From Candidatus Fermentibacterota bacterium (GTDB taxonomy: Bacteria > JAFGKV01): a stretch of DNA of 13,882 bases. The DNA lies in the NCBI GenBank assembly GCA_030620115.1, contig JAUXFG010000100.1, positions 1-13,882 on the forward strand, written 5' to 3'. The notes under the pieces were generated by a model. That model was not told the origin of the DNA, made no database searches, and saw nothing but the letters and a program-made list of their open reading frames with translations. Made by a program: the position numbers and the translations under genes. The stretch's first letter is position 1, and each line of letters starts with the position of its first letter. This document shows, one piece after another, positions 1,123 to 13,704 of the stretch.

Positions 1123-1288
1123 GCCCGCACTTCTCATCGGCTTTCGTCGCGAAGCGGTGTAGTTGGCTGTGGCTGTCCCGCGGCCGACGCGGGATCGAGG
1201 AGTCCGAAGGAGCATAACGCAGTCCCGCGTCGGACGCGGGATGCCATATCGGCGGTTGCAGTCGAAAGCTGGTGAGAAGTTCGGGCTA
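1123..1288. repeat. MITE-like element with TTAGCCCGCACTTCTCACCG-type ends, copy A
   Basis: The left end (1123-1140, GCCCGCACTTCTCATCGG) and the right end (1271-1288, GGTGAGAAGTTCGGGCTA) are imperfect inverted repeats. Inside are two strong hairpins, TCCCGCG/CGCGGGA at 1176-1194 and TCCCGCGT/ACGCGGGA at 1223-1241. Between them is a 25-bp block (1195-1219) shared with copy B at 23 of 25 positions. There is no open frame for a transposase, so any mobility would be in trans. The right end overlaps the phoU stop codon. No flanking target duplication was identified. Confidence 0.7.
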
Positions 1289-1957
1289 AGGGGCCAGGAA
1301 ATCCTCGGTTTGGTGGCGGACGATGTCGCCTTCGGCCATATAGATGACATCCTCGGCGATGTTCGTCGCGAGGTCAGCGATTCGTTCGAGATGACGACTG
1401 ATGCTCAGCGTATGAAGCAAGACGTCAGATCCCTCTGGTTGCTGGCGAAACATCTCTTCTGCTTCTTTGAACATCTGCCGATTCATCTCATCAACCTCGT
1501 CATCAGAAATGCATACCTTCCTTGCTAAGGAGGGATCGATGTTCACCAGGGCATCGAGACTGTCCTTGAGCATCTGCTGCACAAGCCGAGCCATGCCCTG
1601 GAAATCGAAGAACGGTGCGGTTCGACCCCGCGTGGCCAGGAACAAAGCGCGTTCAGCGATATTCACGGCCAGATCCCCGATTCGTTCGAGATCGTTGTTG
1701 ATCTTCAATACCGCGACAATAAATCGAAGATCAATGGCCACGGGCTGATGGAGGGCCAGGATTTTCAGGCACTCCTCTTCGATATCGACCTCCATCTGGT
1801 CGATATTCTCATCTGCTTGAATCACATGCCGAGCCAAATCGGCATCCCGGTTCTGAATCGAATCAACCGCCCGCTGAACGCTTTCCTCAACAACCGCGCT
1901 CAATGCCAGAATCTGACGCTTGAGTCGCCCAAGTTCCCGCTCCAAATGCTTTCCCAT
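1286..1957 (-). CDS. phoU: PhoU, phosphate-signalling regulator
   Basis: This 223-residue protein has the two-repeat PhoU architecture: two three-helix bundles, each with the metal-binding ExxxD signature, at ERIGD (91-95, followed by LAVNIAE) and ERIAD (191-195, followed by LATNIAEDVIYMAEG). Length is typical. PhoU is a cytoplasmic peripheral protein that links the Pst transporter to PhoR and keeps the Pho response off when phosphate is plentiful. The ATG at 1957 is preceded by a good ribosome binding site (GGAGGG, about 7 bases upstream). It is the last gene of the cluster and lies 87 bp after pstB; that gap contains no obvious promoter. Its TAG stop is formed by the terminal repeat of element A, so the last codons border the repeat directly. 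Identification is firm. Confidence 0.96.
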   Translation of the reverse strand: MGKHLERELGRLKRQILALSAVVEESVQRAVDSIQNRDADLARHVIQADENIDQMEVDIEEECLKILALHQPVAIDLRFIVAVLKINNDLERIGDLAVNIAERALFLATRGRTAPFFDFQGMARLVQQMLKDSLDALVNIDPSLARKVCISDDEVDEMNRQMFKEAEEMFRQQPEGSDVLLHTLSISRHLERIADLATNIAEDVIYMAEGDIVRHQTEDFLAP

Positions 1958-2044: not shown

Positions 2045-2866
2045 TCATCCGAATCTCCCCGTGATGTAATCCTCGGTCTGTTTCTTCGTGGGCTTGGTGA
2101 ACAAGGCATTCGTTTTCCCAAATTCCACGAGCACCCCCTCGTAGAAGAAGGCGGTCAAATCGCTGATCCGAGCAGCCTGCTGCATGTTGTGGGTGACAAT
2201 GACGATGGTGTACCTGCCCCGCAGCTCACCAATAAGATCCTCGATCCTTGCGGTAGACTGGGGGTCCAGTGCGGAGGTCGGTTCGTCCATGAGCAAGACC
2301 TCCGGGTCTACGGCCAATGCGCGAGCGATGCAGAGTCGTTGTTGCTGCCCGCCCGAAAGGCCAAGCGCATTCTGCCCCAGCCGATCCTTGACCTCATCCC
2401 ATATCGCTGCTCGATGCAGGCTGTGCTCCACGATCTGGGCCAGTTTCCCTTTGTTCTTGATGCCCTGGAGCCGTGGCCCGTAGGCCACATTGTCGAACAC
2501 CGATTTAGGAAAGGGATTGGGCTTCTGGAACACCATGCCAACCCGTTGGCGCAGAGCCACTGCATCCACGTCACGACCGTAAATATCCGTTTCGTCGAAG
2601 AACAGGTTTCCTTGGGCAAAGCAGCCGGGGATTAAATCGTTCATCCGGTTGATGGCCCGCAAGAAAGTACTCTTGCCGCACCCACTTGGACCAATGATTG
2701 CAGTAACCAGTCCAACCGGGATATCGAAGGTGACCTCCTTGACCGCCTCATTTGTTCGATAAAAAACCGAGAACTCGCGGGCTGAAACATGTGCTTCTGT
2801 GGGTTCCTGGAAAGAGCTCGGCCTTGTTGGTGGGCGTACGGTCGAGAGCAATGTTCTAGCCTGCAT
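2045..2866 (-). CDS. pstB: PstB, phosphate ABC transporter ATP-binding protein
   Basis: The 273 residues carry all motifs of a functional PstB: Walker [10 protein letters not shown] (59-67), Q-loop Gln114, signature LSGGQQQR (170-177), Walker B VLLMDEP (190-196, catalytic Glu195), H-loop His226 and the family C-terminus [13 protein letters not shown]. It hydrolyses ATP on the cytoplasmic face of PstCA to drive phosphate import. The family core starts near residue 28 (SAREFSVFY), so about 26 residues are an unusual N-terminal extension. The only in-frame ATG is at 2866, inside the terminal repeat of element B (MQA are encoded by the repeat end), with a GGTGAGAA stretch just upstream. A TTG at codon 6 is an alternative; codon 27 is GTT, which is not a usual start. 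Function is firm; the start is less so. Confidence 0.96.
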
Positions 2867-3046: not shown

Positions 3047-4393
3047 TCATCCTCTCAGCTTCTTGGAAATCCTCGCCCGCAGAACGATTGCCGTGATATT
3101 AAGAAGAAGAACCAGCAAGACCAGGGTAAGCACCATGCCATACTGTATATGTCGGATCTCATCCACTGCCTCGTGCTCTGTGGCCAGGTTGTAGATGTTC
3201 CACGACAACGCAGGGGTGGGCTGGGAGATGGTCTCCCAAAACTTGAGGGGCTGCCCCACGCTCACGGCAGCGGTGAAGATGATGGGAGCAGTCTCGCCCG
3301 CAGCCCGCCCCATGCTGATGACAATACTCGTCAGAATGCCGGGAAGCGCCGCGGGGAGAATGACGGTCACCACGGTCCACCATTTCCCTGCCCCCAAGCT
3401 GAGGGCCGCCTCTCTATAGGTGTGGGGCACGGCCCTGATCGCCTCTTCAGAAGCGCGGATCACTGTGGGCAAGACAAGAAGAGCCAGGGTCAGTGATCCA
3501 GCCAACACGCTCTTTGATTCGGATATGCTGAGCGTGTTCAGGAAAAACGCCAACCCGAAAAGGCCAAACACGATGCTGGGAACCCCGGCAAGGGAGCTTA
3601 TGCAGGTGCGAAGGAGCTGAATGCCTGAGCTGTCGCCTGCATACTCAACCAGATAGATGGCCGCAATGATTCCCATGGGAATCGCGAAGATCATTGCCAT
3701 TATTGTCAGGTAGAGCGTGCCCAACACCTCAGGCCCAATGCCCCCGAAAAAGTGCGCATCAAGGGACCTGTCGAACAGGAATCGCCAATAGAAAGTGGTC
3801 CGTGGAAGGAACATTTGCTCCATGTTCTCTTCCACGTAGGCAAATAGCGGCTGAAGCGAGGTGCCGCGAAATTTCTGCTCCCGCGGGACAAGGATTTTCC
3901 TCCCCATTTGAGCTCTGTCCGAATAGTCATACTCCTCGATATAGAGAAGACGCCCTAGTTTGACCTTCGCCTGATCCCATCTGGTTTCCCCGTACTGATC
4001 GCGAATGAGAATGGGTCTCTTCTTCCCAGGGAGAGGGCCTAACAACTCGACGACAAGATCCTCGACTTCTCGCATCGATTTCCGACGCTGAATCCTATCT
4101 CCGAAACTGAGCCTTTGGGGTTCTTCCTTGAATGCTGCTATCATATCGTACACCGGGGCCCGGGCGGCTCTGACCTGATCCAATTCAGCTTCGATCATAT
4201 CCCTATCACCGCGATGGAATTTCTCCATCATCAGGCGCCGATGCTCGATGGTCCCCTGGAAGACTGCCGCTCCCATCCCCCGCCCGAATATGGGGGCAAG
4301 GATGACCAGGAGGGATGCAGCCATAAACCCGATTGAAAGGAAACCAAGCCCACTAAACGAGCGATCCAAGAGCTTGCGAGTTCTAAGCCGCAC
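3047..4393 (-). CDS. pstA: PstA, phosphate ABC transporter permease with large N-terminal extracytoplasmic insertion
   Basis: This inner-membrane permease pairs with PstC to form the phosphate channel. Residues about 217-448 are the conserved PstA core (GGIGPEVLGTLYLT, several membrane helices, and the EAA loop REAALSLGAGKWWTVV near 327-342 followed by RAAGETAPIIF). At 448 residues it is about 150 longer than E. coli PstA. The excess is a charged soluble segment (about 45-215) between the first membrane helix (about 15-36) and the rest. Longer PstA proteins with an N-terminal domain (Pfam DUF3333) are known, and this may be one. The start is GTG at 4393, one base after the pstC stop, with AGGGG upstream, which suggests translational coupling. 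Stop is TGA at 3049-3047; element B begins 7 bases further on. Confidence 0.95.
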   Translation of the reverse strand: MRLRTRKLLDRSFSGLGFLSIGFMAASLLVILAPIFGRGMGAAVFQGTIEHRRLMMEKFHRGDRDMIEAELDQVRAARAPVYDMIAAFKEEPQRLSFGDRIQRRKSMREVEDLVVELLGPLPGKKRPILIRDQYGETRWDQAKVKLGRLLYIEEYDYSDRAQMGRKILVPREQKFRGTSLQPLFAYVEENMEQMFLPRTTFYWRFLFDRSLDAHFFGGIGPEVLGTLYLTIMAMIFAIPMGIIAAIYLVEYAGDSSGIQLLRTCISSLAGVPSIVFGLFGLAFFLNTLSISESKSVLAGSLTLALLVLPTVIRASEEAIRAVPHTYREAALSLGAGKWWTVVTVILPAALPGILTSIVISMGRAAGETAPIIFTAAVSVGQPLKFWETISQPTPALSWNIYNLATEHEAVDEIRHIQYGMVLTLVLLVLLLNITAIVLRARISKKLRG

Positions 4394-4394
4394 C

Positions 4395-5582
4395 TCACGT
4401 CCCCTGGGTTTTTCTCATGGCTCGTCTTCTCACCGTCTCGCTTGCCAGATTGCTGAAGAAGGAAATGAGAAGCAGGCAAGCAGCCATGGCGAAGAGCACA
4501 TGATACCGAGCCGATCCAGTGACATGATCAGCCTCGCCCATGTCTCCGGCTATGGTGGCCGTCAATGTCCGTATCGGCTCGAGATAGTTGTACCATGGAT
4601 GAGGAATCTGCGCAGCGTTTCCCGAGGCCATCCATACCACCATGGTCTCCCCTATGGCGCGCATGACTCCGAGAATCACCGCAGCCAGAATCCCACTGCT
4701 CGCCGCGGGGAGCACCACCTTCATCATTGTCTCGGCCCTTGTCGCGCCTAATGCATAGCTCCCCTCGCGGAGCTCTCGGCCCACTGCCTGAAGAGCATCC
4801 TCTGAAACGCTGACTACTGTCGGCAGTGCCATAATGCCGAGGATAAGAGATACATTGAGCGCATTGGTGCCGCTGGAGATCTCCAGACCCGTCAATCTTC
4901 TCCCAAGCAAGGCGAGGGCAAGAAGCCCAAGGCCCACAAGGAGCGCTGTCGTACTGATCCTGATCAATCCCCGATGCGTGCCCGCCAAACGCTGCGAGAA
5001 TAGATCTCCCAGCACCGTCGCGCCAAGAAAGAGAAGTGGAAGGCCCACTACATATACGACAATCGAAAGTATCTGCCCCCCCTGCTCCTGAAGCATAGGC
5101 GCAAGGACAACAAGCGCAAAGAATCCATACGCAACTGAGGGAATGGCGGCCAGTATCTCGATGACCGGCTTCGCCATTTGACGCAGATGAAATGGGAGTA
5201 CGTCGCTGAGGCAGATGGACGCGGCAATGCCCAATGGGACTGAGACCATCACCGCGCCCAGAGTGACGAGCCCACTGCCGGCAAAAATTGCAAGGGCTCC
5301 AAACTCGGACGGTTCCCCGGATGGGTACCATCGAGAGCTCGAAAAGAACTCCGTGAGCCCACGGAGCTGGAAAAAGGGCAGGGCGTCTCTGAAGATGAAG
5401 TAGAAGATGAAAAGGATGGCGACTGCGGATAGGGATGTGATGGTGAGCAAGAATCCATGTCCTATAATGGAGGCCCGCCGCTTATGGCGGCCGGCACTCT
5501 TGGAAAGGAGCAGACTTGCTTTGCGACCGCCGGATGTGCGGCTCCAAATTCCCGCTCTATCCTCCTGCTCCAACAGTCTCAT
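4395..5582 (-). CDS. pstC: PstC, phosphate ABC transporter permease
   Basis: The partner permease of PstA has 395 residues (E. coli PstC is about 319). Visible features are a first helix at about 42-65, the family stretch IEILAAIPSVAYGFFALVVLAP (from 141), the segment MALPTVVSVSEDAL (251-264), and the EAA loop EGSYALGATRAETMMKVV (273-290) followed by MRAIGETMVVWMA. Two departures are seen. There is a basic cytoplasmic N-terminus of about 40 residues. There is also an insertion of about 70 residues (about 165-235) with two extra hydrophobic stretches between conserved core helices. The ATG at 5582 has GGGGAG about 11 bases upstream. The gene sits 47 bp after pstS and is contiguous with pstA, consistent with one transcript. 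Confidence 0.95.
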   Translation of the reverse strand: MRLLEQEDRAGIWSRTSGGRKASLLLSKSAGRHKRRASIIGHGFLLTITSLSAVAILFIFYFIFRDALPFFQLRGLTEFFSSSRWYPSGEPSEFGALAIFAGSGLVTLGAVMVSVPLGIAASICLSDVLPFHLRQMAKPVIEILAAIPSVAYGFFALVVLAPMLQEQGGQILSIVVYVVGLPLLFLGATVLGDLFSQRLAGTHRGLIRISTTALLVGLGLLALALLGRRLTGLEISSGTNALNVSLILGIMALPTVVSVSEDALQAVGRELREGSYALGATRAETMMKVVLPAASSGILAAVILGVMRAIGETMVVWMASGNAAQIPHPWYNYLEPIRTLTATIAGDMGEADHVTGSARYHVLFAMAACLLLISFFSNLASETVRRRAMRKTQGT

Positions 5583-5629: not shown

Positions 5630-6451
5630 CTAATACGACGTCACCGGCACGAACCCGATGGCCTCAATAATCTCCTGGCCATTGGGGCTAAGATGCAGCG
5701 TCACCAACGCGTGCAGATGACCGCCAAGCTCTGGATAGCCATTCGTGAACATGAACAGTGGACGTGAAATGGGATAGGTGCCGCTGGAAACGGTCAACAT
5801 GGTTGGCTCGATACCGTTGATCTTCAGAGGCTTGACCGTATGATCGATAAACCCGAGCCCCACGTATCCAATAGCCGCTGGTGTGGTCTGAACCCGCTGC
5901 CGAGCGCCACCATTGGAGCCGACATATTCAACGCTTGCCGCCATCTTCTGCTTGTTCATCACCAGCTTCGCGAAGGTCTCGTAGGTGCCGCTGTTGGTGT
6001 CTCGGCTGATTGCTATGATCTTCTTGTTCGGCCCGCCCAACTCCTTCCAATTCGTAACAGTGCCCAGGTAGATATCACGAACCTGCTCCACCGATAGACC
6101 CGAGATCGGATTGCTGGGATGGACCAAAACCGCGATACCGTCCATGGCCACGACATGGGCAACGGGGAAAACGCCGGCTTCCACCGCCGCGTTGAACTCC
6201 TTGTCCTTCATGAATCGTGACATATCGGCAATATCACATGTCCCGTTGATCAGGCTCTTTGCGCCGTTGCCACTCCCCGACTCACTAACCGTGATATTCA
6301 CCCCTGGATTCTGCTCCATGTAGTACTCTGAAAATGCCTTGGCAATGGGCCCCACTGTGGTGGAACCATCAATGGCGATCCTCTCGTCAGCAACTGCACT
6401 ACCGATAAGCACAAAAGAAAGCCCGATAATACTAAGTAGTTTCCAGTTCAT
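5630..6451 (-). CDS. pstS: PstS, periplasmic phosphate-binding protein
   Basis: The 273-residue precursor has a signal peptide at about 1-21 (hydrophobic LLSIIGLSFVLIGSAVA, cleavage probably after SAVA). The mature part is a PstS-type two-lobed binding protein. Family motifs for phosphate contacts are DGSTTVGP (28-35), SGSGNGAKSL (58-67), DIADMSR (73-79) and SRDTNSGTYE (149-158). It captures phosphate in the periplasm and delivers it to PstCA. The ATG at 6451 has AAGGAAGGAAA just upstream. It is the first transporter gene, and its 426-bp leader contains two repeat elements. No lipobox is visible, so the protein is probably soluble. Confidence 0.96.
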   Translation of the reverse strand: MNWKLLSIIGLSFVLIGSAVADERIAIDGSTTVGPIAKAFSEYYMEQNPGVNITVSESGSGNGAKSLINGTCDIADMSRFMKDKEFNAAVEAGVFPVAHVVAMDGIAVLVHPSNPISGLSVEQVRDIYLGTVTNWKELGGPNKKIIAISRDTNSGTYETFAKLVMNKQKMAASVEYVGSNGGARQRVQTTPAAIGYVGLGFIDHTVKPLKINGIEPTMLTVSSGTYPISRPLFMFTNGYPELGGHLHALVTLHLSPNGQEIIEAIGFVPVTSY

Positions 6452-6877: not shown

Positions 6878-7942
6878 CTAAAACTTGAACTTGAAATCTA
6901 TCTGTAGACGATTATAGTCTTCCTCTTCCTCGCCTTCGGCGATATTCTTGGTATTGAGGAAATAGGTCGCGCAGAGATCGGCCTTCTCCATGAGACAATA
7001 CCCGGCGCCCAGAATAAGGCCCTTTGCATCGGTTCCCCCGCCTCCGAAGTCGGAATCCGTGAACTCGGGATAGACTGCGTTGGTTTCCAGGCTCTCATAG
7101 AGAATTTTGAGGTCCCACGAGCCGGGCGCCTTCCTCTTACCTGCCGTGAATCCGGCGAGCATGCCCGTGTCTTCGGTGTCGGCAGCGCTATTGACGACAT
7201 AGTTCCCCAGGACGGTTACGGGAACGTTCCCGAACTTGAACCCGAGCTCAGCCAGGCCCTCTAATTCGTCATAGTCCTGACCCAAGTTATCCTCGGCCTC
7301 GGTATAGGAGTAGATGCCGGCGCCCACGGTGAGCGTGGCGGCGCCAATCTCCAAGGTAGCCCCACCTTGACCACCGAAAAGCAAAACATCCGAATCGGTC
7401 TTGATCTCACTCACCCAGAAACCACCGGAGTTGAGAAAGATTCCTGTTTCCCCCATGGATGACTTGTACTTGATAGCAAGACCTTCAGGCGTGAGATCGC
7501 CATCCCAGATGAGCCCGGCTTTTCCAGGACGATGGTATGGGTTCTTCATCTTTCCACCCACGATGTGGAGGCCTTTCATCCGGTCCGGGTGGAGATCGAA
7601 ACAGGCGAGATCGAGCTGGACGCCCTTGCTGCTGAATCCGCTCCCTAAGGTCTGGTTTGTGGAAACGGGATCATCCGATCCGGTGGCGAGTCTCAGATCA
7701 AAGTCTATGCTTTCTGTCACATTGGCATGAAGCAGAACGCGGGCACGTATGCGTTGACGCTGACGAGTGTAGGTGTCCCCTCCGTCATCAACGCTGGCAT
7801 CATCGGAGATCATCTCATGCCGGTAGCGGAAATCACCGCTCAGCGTGAGGCTATCCCATGTTCCGGCCTTGCAGGCATCGGGAATGGCCATCGTTGAAAT
7901 GAAAAACGCCGTAATCAACAAACAACCGACTGTTTTGTTCAT
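6878..7942 (-). CDS. Putative outer-membrane porin, probably Pho-regulated
   Basis: The start is ATG at 7942 (354 residues) because GGAG lies 6 bases upstream and a signal peptide begins there (MNKTVGCLLITAFF...ACKA, about 26 residues). An upstream in-frame start at 7984 would add 14 residues and spoil the signal. The mature protein is rich in alternating polar and hydrophobic strands, has acidic loops and ends FKFKF with a terminal Phe, the usual beta-barrel assembly signal. The passage NPYHRPGKAGLIWDGDLTPE matches my memory of the Pfam putative-porin family (Porin_5), not classic OmpF/PhoE. It would form a diffusion channel. Its place between phoR and pstS, behind a Pho-box-like array, suggests phosphate uptake across the outer membrane; substrate is inferred from context only. 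Confidence 0.85.
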   Translation of the reverse strand: MNKTVGCLLITAFFISTMAIPDACKAGTWDSLTLSGDFRYRHEMISDDASVDDGGDTYTRQRQRIRARVLLHANVTESIDFDLRLATGSDDPVSTNQTLGSGFSSKGVQLDLACFDLHPDRMKGLHIVGGKMKNPYHRPGKAGLIWDGDLTPEGLAIKYKSSMGETGIFLNSGGFWVSEIKTDSDVLLFGGQGGATLEIGAATLTVGAGIYSYTEAEDNLGQDYDELEGLAELGFKFGNVPVTVLGNYVVNSAADTEDTGMLAGFTAGKRKAPGSWDLKILYESLETNAVYPEFTDSDFGGGGTDAKGLILGAGYCLMEKADLCATYFLNTKNIAEGEEEEDYNRLQIDFKFKF

Positions 7943-8125: not shown

Positions 8126-8179
8126 ATGATACAAGGAGATCGTTAGAGGAAGATGAGCAGATTGTTAGAAGATTGTGAG
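8126..8179 (-). promoter_or_regulatory. Pho-box-like array of four 11-bp direct repeats with possible -10, upstream of the porin
   Basis: On the minus strand four contiguous 11-bp units (8179-8169, 8168-8158, 8157-8147, 8146-8136) fit CT[AC]A[CT]NNTC[TC]N with one exception at unit position 7 or so. Positions 1, 2, 4, 8 and 9 are identical in all four. PhoB and PhoP bind direct repeats with an 11-bp period (CTGTCAT-type in E. coli, TTAACA-type in Bacillus). Eight bases past the last unit's 7-mer is TATCAT (8131-8126), a plausible -10. The leader to the porin ATG would be about 175 nt. The cognate PhoB is encoded in the same window. Confidence 0.55.
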
Positions 8180-8182
8180 CAA

Positions 8183-8204
8183 CCAATACGATCTTGCGTA
8201 TTGG
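8183..8204. promoter_or_regulatory. Perfect 8-bp inverted repeat next to the Pho-box-like array
   Basis: CCAATACG (8183-8190) and CGTATTGG (8197-8204) flank a 6-base loop. It lies three bases from the direct-repeat array on its upstream side. It could be an operator for a second regulator or an RNA hairpin past phoR. There is no T-tract, so it is not a standard terminator. Confidence 0.4.
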
Positions 8205-8360: not shown

Positions 8361-8392
8361 TGTAGCCTCAGCCCGCCGAAGGCGGATCTACA
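8361..8392 (-). other. Hairpin overlapping the phoR stop codon
   Basis: In the transcript, TGTAG pairs with CTACA outside a CCGCC-TTC-GGCGG stem. The phoR TAG stop is within the left arm. There is no U-run after the stem, so intrinsic termination is unlikely. It could instead protect the 3' end or mark a repeat. The rest of 7985-8387 holds no gene. Confidence 0.35.
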
Positions 8393-10160
8393 ATCTGGGA
8401 AGATGGATGGAAAAGACGCTGCCCTGTCCTGGGATACTCTCCACAGCAGCTGAACCTCCGTGTGCTTGGGCTATGTGCTTCACGATGGATAGGCCAAGCC
8501 CAGTGCCGCCAAGCTTCCTGCTCCTGGCTTTGTCGACCCGATAAAAACGCTCGAAGATGCGGGAGAGATGCTCTTCCTCAATGCCAGAGCCCTTGTCGCG
8601 GACGTGTATCACCACCTCGTCTTCAGACTGAGAAGCTTCAATGGTCACCGGGCTTCCGGGATCGCTGTACTTGATGGCATTGTCCATGAGGTTGGCCACC
8701 GCCTCCTCCAAGAGAGCACCGTTCGCGCGTACGTTGATCCTATCGCTGCATATGAGCTGGATCTCTATCTGTCTCTCAGATGCAATGACCTCACATATCT
8801 GGAGCGCACCGAGAAGGATTGACTCAAGCTGAGTCTCCTCCAGCTCGACTGTGCCGGCCTCAGCCTCTTGTTCGATCCTGGAAAGACTCAAGAGATCATC
8901 TATGATGGTTCCAAGCCGGTCAGCATGCCTAGAGATGATTTCCAGGAAACGCTTCGTATCCTCAGGTGTGTGGGATCTCCCATCAAGTAGCGTCTCAATG
9001 AAGCCCTCGATGGAGGTAACAGGTGTTCTCAGCTCATGCGAGACATTGGCCACGAATTCCCTACGCACACCCTCCAATCGTCGAAGCTTCGTGATATCAT
9101 TCAAGACTACCAGAGCTCCGAACTCCTTCCCCTGGGAATCGGTCAGAATGGAACCGTAGGCTTGCACGAATCGCTCGCCGAGACTCCGAAGTGTGACCTC
9201 TCCTTCGACCGGCTCCGAACTGGAGAGTGCCTTCTCAATGAAGCGTTCGAGGTCAGCATTCCTGATCACCTCCAAGAGATGTTGACCCTGTGCTCGGTCT
9301 CGATTCGTGCCAAGAAGCCGTGCAGCAGCCTCGTTCATGCTGATGATCCGCTGCTCATTATCCACAGCGAGTACTCCCTCCACCATGCTGGAAAGCACGG
9401 CTTCGAGCTCATTTCGTTGTTGCACGGCCTTCTGAATTCGATCGTTCAGCTCAGCGGCCATCTGATTCATGGTCTCCGCCAGAGCGGCCATCTCCTCTGT
9501 GCCGTACACGGGGAGTCTGCTATCTAGATCCCCACGCGCAAACCGCTCAGCTCCCCGCTTCATCTCCTCAAGAGGTCTACTGATTCTCCTGGACACCCAG
9601 ATCCCCGCCACCACAGCCAGTAAAGCTACGACCATACTGCCAAGCAAGAGATCGTCATAGAGTGTGCGTAGAGTCTCTCGAATAGAGGTCACCGGCCTCG
9701 AAGTTCTTAGCACACAGATGACCTTCCCGTCTGAGCGCACCGGAAGGGCGACGTACATGTGGGTTTTCTGGAGCGTATGACTGAACCGAACAGATCGACC
9801 AATCGCCCCAGCCAGTGCTGCCCGCACTTCCGGCCGGTCTCTATGATCGTCCATGGTCTCAGGAGCCTCCTCCGAATCTCCGATGACGCGCCCACTGGGA
9901 AGTATGATGGTAAGGCGTGTTCCGGCCCGGCTCCCAAGCTGTTTGGAGAGCGAATCAAGACGCGCAGGATTCCCATCGTCCAAAAGGTCCGACATCTGCG
10001 GCGTGAGTAGATGCGCCTGGGCCTCGAGGTCCAAGGCAACGTGATCCAGGTGGAATTGGCGCAGAGCCGTGGATGCATACCACGTCAGTGCTGCCAACGA
10101 CACGATGGTGATAATAACAAGGGGCGGAAAAATCCGCCAGAAGAGCCGTTTTCTCATCAC
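8388..10160 (-). CDS. phoR: PhoR, phosphate-regulon sensor histidine kinase
   Basis: The 590-residue membrane kinase has membrane helices at about 10-30 and 171-190 flanking a sensor region (about 31-170). A HAMP domain follows (about 191-245; RRISRPLEEM), then a PAS domain (about 250-355; MVEGVLAVDNEQRIISMNEAA). The HisKA domain has the phospho-accepting His375 in FVANVSHELRTP, and the HATPase_c domain has an N-box with Asn494 (NLMDNAIKY), G1 DKGSGI (522-527), F-box ERFYRVDK and G2 GGTGLGL (551-557). All catalytic motifs are intact. The large extracytoplasmic part is longer than in E. coli PhoR and resembles the Bacillus layout. The GTG at 10160 is 3 bases after the phoB stop with GAGGG 7 bases upstream; the next codon is ATG (10157), an alternative start. 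It phosphorylates PhoB and, by family analogy, is restrained by Pst/PhoU. Confidence 0.93.
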   Translation of the reverse strand: MMRKRLFWRIFPPLVIITIVSLAALTWYASTALRQFHLDHVALDLEAQAHLLTPQMSDLLDDGNPARLDSLSKQLGSRAGTRLTIILPSGRVIGDSEEAPETMDDHRDRPEVRAALAGAIGRSVRFSHTLQKTHMYVALPVRSDGKVICVLRTSRPVTSIRETLRTLYDDLLLGSMVVALLAVVAGIWVSRRISRPLEEMKRGAERFARGDLDSRLPVYGTEEMAALAETMNQMAAELNDRIQKAVQQRNELEAVLSSMVEGVLAVDNEQRIISMNEAAARLLGTNRDRAQGQHLLEVIRNADLERFIEKALSSSEPVEGEVTLRSLGERFVQAYGSILTDSQGKEFGALVVLNDITKLRRLEGVRREFVANVSHELRTPVTSIEGFIETLLDGRSHTPEDTKRFLEIISRHADRLGTIIDDLLSLSRIEQEAEAGTVELEETQLESILLGALQICEVIASERQIEIQLICSDRINVRANGALLEEAVANLMDNAIKYSDPGSPVTIEASQSEDEVVIHVRDKGSGIEEEHLSRIFERFYRVDKARSRKLGGTGLGLSIVKHIAQAHGGSAAVESIPGQGSVFSIHLPRL

Positions 10161-10163
10161 TGG

Positions 10164-10850
10164 TCATCCCTCGAGCTTGTAGCCTACGCCGCGCACCGTC
10201 TTGATGAATTTCCCCGCCGAGCCAAGCTTCTTTCTAAGGCCCACGATCTGAACGTCTATGGAGCGATCAGTGACAGGATAGTTGTCCCCATGTACCCCGT
10301 CAACAATCTGGTACCGCGTGAATACCCACCCGGGGTGTCTGGCTAAGAGATGAAGCAATTTGAACTCAGTTGACGTGAGAGGGATCGGTTGGTCATCCAC
10401 AGTAACCTCGTGCCGCCCGGGTCGAATCATGATATTGTGGATCGAAATATCGGCCATCTCATTCACTGATTCTTTGGTCTTTCGCCGGAGCACCGTCTTG
10501 ATCCTGGCCATGAGGATCCGAGGACTGAATGGTTTGGTTATATAGTCATCCGCCCCCAACTCGAGACCGGCAACGATATCCGCCTCCTCCCCCTTGGCCG
10601 TCAGGATGATGATAGGGATACTCCGTGTACTCGCATAAGCCTTCAGTTCCCTGCACACGTCCAAACCGTCAATGCCCGGCAACATGAGATCGAGGATGAC
10701 AAGGTCAGGATGCTCCCTCTTTGCGGTCGAGAGGCCCGCCTCTCCTGTTTGGACGGCAAGGACACCATAGCCTTCCCCGGAAAGGTTGTACCTCACCAGT
10801 TCGAGGATGTCCTCTTCATCTTCCACCACAAGAATGGTTTGTCTCGCCAT
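10164..10850 (-). CDS. phoB: PhoB, phosphate-regulon response regulator
   Basis: This 228-residue OmpR/PhoB-type regulator has a receiver domain (about 4-118) with acidic pocket Glu10/Asp11, phospho-acceptor Asp54 (VILDLMLPG), Thr84 and Lys106 (TKPF). A linker leads to a winged-helix DNA-binding domain (about 130-228) with LTSTEFKLLHLLARHPGWVF, the recognition region DRSIDVQIVGLRKKL and the terminal TVRGVGYKL. When phosphorylated by PhoR it would activate Pho promoters by binding 11-bp-spaced direct repeats. The ATG at 10850 has GAGG 8 bases upstream. phoB and phoR are separated by 3 bases, so they are almost certainly one transcript. I call it PhoB from domain type and location beside pst; it could also be named PhoP. 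Confidence 0.93.
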   Translation of the reverse strand: MARQTILVVEDEEDILELVRYNLSGEGYGVLAVQTGEAGLSTAKREHPDLVILDLMLPGIDGLDVCRELKAYASTRSIPIIILTAKGEEADIVAGLELGADDYITKPFSPRILMARIKTVLRRKTKESVNEMADISIHNIMIRPGRHEVTVDDQPIPLTSTEFKLLHLLARHPGWVFTRYQIVDGVHGDNYPVTDRSIDVQIVGLRKKLGSAGKFIKTVRGVGYKLEG

Positions 10851-12879: not shown

Positions 12880-13704
12880 ATGTTATGCTCAAATCGAGAT
12901 GCCATTCGTTTTGTCCTAGCAAGGCTGCCAGTTCTGGCAATGCTTGTGCTTCCTCTCCTTGTGGTATCATGTGGCCAGAAGGCAGAGCAACCAACATCAC
13001 CCGTGTCCAGCCTCATCGGTCACTGGAGCTTGGACTCGACACACATCTCCGGAGTCACCGTCCTGGATCAGGCCGGCTCACTGAATGGGACCATCCGGGG
13101 AAAGGTCGAGGCCTTTGAGAGCCAAGATGTGCAAGGCCTCGAGTTTGATGGCGAGACTGGCAATATCCTTCTCACTGACGACATTTCCAGTGGCGGCCTG
13201 CCTGTCAAGAACCTGACGGCTGAGGCGTGGGTGCTCCCTTTTCGTGGTTCAGAATGGGGCGGCATAATCGGCGCCGTGCAAGATAACGGAGGCTTCGAGA
13301 AAGGGTGGATCCTCGGCTACAGTGATGATAGGCCAAGCTTTGCCATCTCGAGCAAAGGAGCCGATGATGGTGATGGTTGTCTGACTTATCTCACGTCCGA
13401 GACCCCATTGGAGATGGGCCACTGGTACCATCTCGTGGGAACGTATGATGGCTCGGTGATGAAGCTCTATGTGAATGGAAAGTTGGCAGCGGAGTCAAAA
13501 GAGCAATCCGGCCCAGTACTCTACCCTGAGAAAGCCTTCTATGTTATAGGAGCCTATCTTGACGACGATGAATCTTTCCCACTGGACGGCAGGCTCGTGG
13601 AAATCCGCGTCTATGCTGATGCACTCACTCCCGCAGAGATCGCTGATCATTATGCGACGCGGGAATCACTAACCCAACTCCCGGTGGTGCTCAGAGAAGA
13701 GTAG
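12880..13704 (+). CDS. Lipoprotein with a LamG/concanavalin A-like domain
   Basis: The 274-residue precursor has a lipoprotein signal peptide: a hydrophobic stretch at about 11-29 (LARLPVLAMLVLPLLVV) and a lipobox VVSC with Cys31, followed by Gly and a flexible Gln/Pro/Ser-rich linker. Residues about 45-262 form one LamG-type jelly-roll (Pfam LamG_3): LIGHWSLDST near the start, LTAEAWVLPF, GHWYHLVGTYDGSVMKLYVNG and FPLDGRLVEIRVYADALTPAEI at the end. Such domains bind carbohydrate or protein ligands, or serve as structural modules at the cell surface. No catalytic domain is attached, so a binding role is inferred. A strong AAAGGAGG lies 7 bases before ATG. The gene follows the serine hydrolase but appears to have its own promoter. 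Fold assignment is good; function is unknown. Confidence 0.87.
   Translation: MLCSNRDAIRFVLARLPVLAMLVLPLLVVSCGQKAEQPTSPVSSLIGHWSLDSTHISGVTVLDQAGSLNGTIRGKVEAFESQDVQGLEFDGETGNILLTDDISSGGLPVKNLTAEAWVLPFRGSEWGGIIGAVQDNGGFEKGWILGYSDDRPSFAISSKGADDGDGCLTYLTSETPLEMGHWYHLVGTYDGSVMKLYVNGKLAAESKEQSGPVLYPEKAFYVIGAYLDDDESFPLDGRLVEIRVYADALTPAEIADHYATRESLTQLPVVLREE

Follow-up and report, generated by a model that had tools for sequence, protein, structure and literature searches.

Pho boxes in described systems and a probable Pho box at the porin locus

The closest described counterparts of the array analysed here are the Pho boxes in the pstS and phoA promoters of E. coli, which are built from 11-bp direct repeats with a TMAY core. 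The PhoP box of Bacillus is TTAACA. The Pho boxes of E. coli sit 10 bp upstream of a -10 element of the form TAN3T (PMC1906773). Across 50 E. coli PhoB sites mapped by ChIP-seq, the first base was G in 83 of 100 half-sites, and the next positions were T (88%), C or A (99%), A (100%) and C or T (91%) (PMC10294691). The Pho-box consensus varies among species (reviewed in PMC4415409). The cyanobacterial SphR box, CTTAACCT, combines an 8-bp repeat with a 3-bp linker, which gives a period of 11 bp (PMC1906773), and the Streptomyces PhoP box, GTTCACC, also consists of 11-bp direct repeats (PMC4415409). The CreB tag, TTCACnnnnnnTTCAC, shares the 11-bp period and a related core but is bound by a different regulator (PMC3660660).

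The window, by which we mean the whole stretch of 13,882 nucleotides that was analysed, is part of a genome of 4.1 Mb (G000), in which genome-wide tests were run as pattern searches. The genes of the locus lie on the minus strand and would be transcribed leftward in the order phoB, phoR, the array, a Porin_5 gene, pstS, pstC, pstA, pstB and phoU. They encode a PhoB-like response regulator (10164..10850), a PhoR/PnpS-like histidine kinase (8388..10160), a porin of the Pfam family Porin_5 (6878..7942), the phosphate-binding protein PstS (5630..6451), the permeases PstC (4395..5582) and PstA (3047..4393), the ATPase PstB (2045..2866) and PhoU (1286..1957). PstS, PstC, PstA, PstB, PhoU and the kinase passed their NCBIfam cut-offs, the kinase with a score of 405.9 against a cut-off of 400 for the PnpS model NF046044. 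The best-matching NCBIfam family for the regulator was the PhoB equivalog TIGR02154, at 251.9 bits and thus below the cut-off of 296.2. The regulator, the putative binder of the array, has the recognition helix TDRSIDVQIVGLRKKL and a glycine at the position of Arg201 in E. coli PhoB.

The array lies between phoBR and the porin-pstSCAB-phoU cluster, on the minus strand from 8179 to 8136. Its four direct repeats of 11 bp are CTCACAATCTT (8169..8179, core CTCAC), CTAACAATCTG (8158..8168, core CTAAC), CTCATCTTCCT (8147..8157, core CTCAT) and CTAACGATCTC (8136..8146, core CTAAC), of which the last overlaps the expected -35 position. They are followed by CTTG and then by a putative -10 element, TATCAT (8131-8126). 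The preliminary description had reported these four contiguous 11-mers with a TATCAT downstream, and positions C1, T2, A4, T8 and C9 as invariant; both observations hold in the window. The best four-unit array at this period in the phoR-porin gap had a column identity of 0.667, which none of 500 dinucleotide shuffles reached (the highest value among them was 0.515); other periods that were tried gave 0.35-0.44. Scans of the same gap found neither a classical sigma-70 pair of -35 and -10 elements nor a terminator. Immediately upstream of the array and past phoR, there is a perfect 8-bp inverted repeat at 8183-8204, CCAATACG-ATCTTG-CGTATTGG, which is not a standard terminator since no T-run follows it. 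Neither the window nor contig C258 of the same genome had a match in Rfam, and no array was found upstream of phoBR itself within the window.

Comparison with the described boxes places the array close to them. At least two direct repeats at an 11-bp period are expected of a Pho box, and the window has four, all with the conserved TMAY half-site core. The element TATCAT (8131-8126) conforms to TAN3T and to the 10-bp spacing described for such an element, and the array stands before phosphate-starvation genes, porin-pstSCAB-phoU, where it is conserved. It differs from the E. coli type, CTGTCAT, in which G precedes TCAT, in that all four window units have C at this place. The window type in general has C or T there, and A is as frequent as C at position 5 of CTGTCAT, unlike in E. 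coli. Because the consensus varies among species, the missing G excludes an E. coli-type sequence but not membership of the Pho boxes. The core of the SphR box, TTAAC, fits YTMAY as the window units do, although its flanking CT bases are not conserved in the window type, and phylum and regulator differ. The Streptomyces core TTCAC also fits YTMAY, while the flanking bases differ and the regulator is actinobacterial. The Bacillus box contains TTAAC, which again fits, whereas the window units start with C. An earlier proposal that the consensus is unlike both the E. coli and the Bacillus types is therefore not supported, since in the E. coli register the TMAY core is shared, only the preceding base differs (G in E. 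coli, C or T in the window type), and YTMAY fits the cyanobacterial and Streptomyces boxes. The site itself is an ordinary kind of predicted Pho box.

Conservation, period and promoter spacing

The phylum comparison comprised three genomes, that of the window and two relatives, G001 and G002. The gene order is phoB-phoR-porin-pstSCAB-phoU in G001 and porin-pstSCAB-phoU in G002, and in both an array precedes the orthologous porin, namely TTCATGAACTC TTCATAAATCC CTCACATCTTT CTCAC... in G001 and TTCACACAATC CTAACGTTCCG CTCACAGTTTC TACAC... in G002. T8 and C9 vary in these relatives, and the core common to all three arrays, the only part that generalises, is [CT]T[AC]A[CT], or YTMAY. By column identity only, the arrays of G001 and G002 taken singly are not significant (25/500 and 81/500 shuffles), and tests of consensus, period and spacing were therefore used. 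The pattern of four YTMAY cores spaced by 11 bp has a single perfect match in the genome of the window, at the array, and a single one in G001, at its porin, and the porin array of G002 matches with one mismatch; the reversed control pattern gave 0-1 matches per genome. The pattern CTNACNATCTNCTNACNATCT also has one exact match in the genome of the window, at the array, and three YTMAY cores at 11-bp steps followed by TAnnnT at the PhoB spacing have a single exact match there, at 8126-8168. Outside the phylum, in G026, the composite pattern of cores and TAnnnT has seven matches with up to one mismatch, six of which fall within one 6-kb cluster containing phoB, phoR, a kinase, porin and pstS.

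A profile built from four porins yielded 80 named loci, of which the 66 with pho or pst genes nearby and sufficient upstream DNA were evaluated. A locus passed if three BTMAY cores scoring at least 14 of 15 were found at 11-bp steps no more than 500 bp upstream of the porin. This was the case for 46 of the 66 loci, which span many phyla, compared with a mean of 1 (maximum 3) in shuffled sequences, 4 on the opposite strand and 0-6 at periods of 6-10 and 12-17 bp. The 11-bp motif predicted to be conserved before orthologous porins is thus present both in the phylum and well beyond it. The preliminary description had proposed such a comparison and had named a lack of conservation as refuting its reading; that outcome was not observed. 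These arrays were selected by core match, which by itself conserves the inner positions and allows C, G or T as the first base; in those from outside the Gammaproteobacteria, the first base is C in 58%, T in 40% and G in 2%, and the next positions are T (100%), A or C (93%), A (99%) and C or T (96%). The version of the Pho box with C or T in place of G is, as far as such predicted sites indicate, recurrent in many little-studied bacterial phyla.

The distance to the -10 element agrees with that of the known promoters. In the window, CTAACGATCTCCTTG is followed by TATCAT, which starts 15 nt past the start of the last core, and the counterpart in G001, CTCACTCTGCTCAGG followed by CATATT, has the same distance. 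The E. coli promoters of pstS (GTCACCTGTTTGTCC followed by TATTTT) and phoA (GTCACGGCCGAGACT followed by TATAGT), both of which were confirmed by perfect matches to E. coli genomes, also have an offset of 15. Among the 46 arrays, TAnnnT is found at offset 15 in 21 and at each other offset from 8 to 25 in 0-3.

The array is thus very probably a PhoB-dependent operator composed of two adjacent Pho boxes, that is, four 11-bp half-sites, predicted to drive the porin gene and, by read-through, pstSCAB-phoU. A PhoB site is well supported, because the array is conserved and unique, is restricted to the 11-bp period and has the -10 offset of the pstS and phoA promoters of E. coli. The preliminary description had suggested a PhoB site that could drive the porin, and in agreement with this the array and its distance to the -10 element are conserved before orthologous porins, next to phoBR and pst genes, in the phylum and in many others. 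Under phosphate limitation, PhoR (8388-10160) would phosphorylate PhoB (10164-10850), and PhoB-P would bind the four TMAY cores head to tail. The bound PhoB-P may then substitute for a -35 element and bring RNA polymerase to the -10 element at 8131-8126. The porin gene would thereby be transcribed, probably with pstSCAB-phoU by read-through, and induction by low phosphate would be expected. Points that count against this reading are the score of the regulator below the TIGR02154 cut-off, the lack of an array upstream of phoBR in the window and a CreB relative with a similar 11-bp tag in the same genome.

Reach of the predicted operator and alternative regulators

The proposal that transcription from the array also reads through into pstSCAB-phoU is retained as a prediction, favoured by the conserved gene order; in the 426-nt gap between porin and pstS, neither a second array nor a terminator-like site was found. 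With neither in the gap, read-through is the most likely arrangement in the window, although the length of the gap makes it less certain than the operator itself. The PhoB site could instead control the porin only, with pstSCAB-phoU transcribed from a promoter of its own. Among the 38 loci with pstS after the porin, 25 have a second array (score at least 14) in the porin-pstS gap, which indicates that separate promoters for porin and pst are common, and the gap in the window is long enough to be compatible with this. However, besides the empty gap in the window, no array scoring at least 14 is present in the porin-pstS gaps of the two phylum relatives (72 and 250 nt), and we consider control of the porin alone rather improbable here. 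A second array is likewise missing from several loci whose gaps measure 30-70 nt. Clusters with two arrays, of which one precedes the porin and the other pstS, are kept in many phyla (related loci L053-L127).

Binding of the array by another OmpR-family regulator is very improbable, and the likeliest candidate is CreB, encoded on contig C182. The CreB found there scores above its NCBIfam cut-off (312.6 versus 273), CreB tags are 11-bp direct repeats as well, and the same contig carries a TTCAT/TTCAC array at a distance of about 3.5 kb from creB. However, the window units have the cores CTCAC, CTAAC, CTCAT and CTAAC and none has the TTCAC of the tag. Arrays of the window type adjoin phoBR and pst both here and in dozens of genomes, and the -10 spacing is that of E. 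coli PhoB promoters. CreB is therefore unlikely to be the main regulator, since the array differs from the CreB tag and adjoins phoBR and pst in so many genomes. The array on contig C182 (7036-7073, plus strand; L033) reads TTCATGAATTT TTCACATGTTT TTCATACACAT ATCAC, precedes genes for unknown membrane proteins and is probably a CreB tag. Finally, a chance repeat or functionless low-complexity remnant, which the lone arrays of G001 and G002 might suggest by column identity, is refuted by genome-wide uniqueness and by conservation across phyla with one period and one -10 offset, and its probability is negligible.

PhoB residue 201 and further arrays

In E. coli PhoB, Arg201 is reported to form a specific hydrogen bond with guanine, with contacts in both half-sites (PMC3973317, citing the PhoB-DNA crystal structure). 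Gammaproteobacteria with G-type arrays have paired PhoBs with Arg201, whereas in PhoBs outside the Arg201 clade this position is occupied by Gly, Ser, Ala or Asn and the arrays are of the Y type. Two gammaproteobacterial genomes, L076 and L090, combine Ala201 with Y-type arrays, and some genomes with Arg201 have no clear array. In the PhoB tree, which does not include the L076 protein, the Arg201 proteins group together (support 0.997), and the L090 protein falls in the non-Arg clade. The association between residue 201 and operator type has a Fisher p = 2e-7, but as all Arg201 PhoBs belong to a single clade, this value does not count as independent evidence. Few evolutionary events thus underlie the association, which could also be due to other differences between the clades. 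M. tuberculosis RegX3, an actinobacterial relative, has Arg at the aligned place, yet T is the corresponding base of the actinobacterial box, and this speaks against a simple rule based on one residue.

It is conceivable, though we would not call it probable, that there are two PhoB clades with different codes, GTMAY for Arg201 and YTMAY for Gly, Ser, Ala or Asn201, that residue 201 sets the first base and that one substitution switched the code. The GTMAY clade corresponds to the Gammaproteobacteria, and the YTMAY clade includes Eisenbacteria/Fermentibacteria-like bacteria, Krumholzibacteriota, Zixibacteria, Planctomycetota, Acidobacteria and others. The correspondence between the change from G to Y and the PhoB clade is a new observation, but a modest one that phylogeny confounds, and it leads to the testable idea that one PhoB residue, 201, may set the operator code. 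For phosphate regulons in uncultured phyla, YTMAY at 11-bp steps with TAnnnT 15 nt past the start of the last core provides a search pattern that is useful where searches with CTGTCAT would fail.

Other arrays were observed in the three genomes. Contig C258 of the window's genome carries a six-unit array of the TTAAC type at 11-bp steps (13475-13538, minus strand; L044), which is longer than the porin array. There is no obvious long reading frame in about 1.2 kb downstream of it, and no conservation of the downstream DNA was found in the phylum; the array possibly serves a small RNA or a short gene under phosphate control. Each of the two relatives has an array (L045:6813-6850, minus strand, and L047:2380-2417, plus strand) before a three-gene operon that encodes a PAP2 phosphatase, a GT4 glycosyltransferase weakly similar to glycolipid synthases and one further protein. 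Such an operon suggests lipid remodelling under phosphate control. In the genome of the window, no close orthologue of the GT4 protein was found. Two Campylobacter phage records, MG065686.1 and MG065691.1, contain a match that is 100% identical over 346 amino acids to the E. coli-type PstS query, possibly as a result of assembly contamination.
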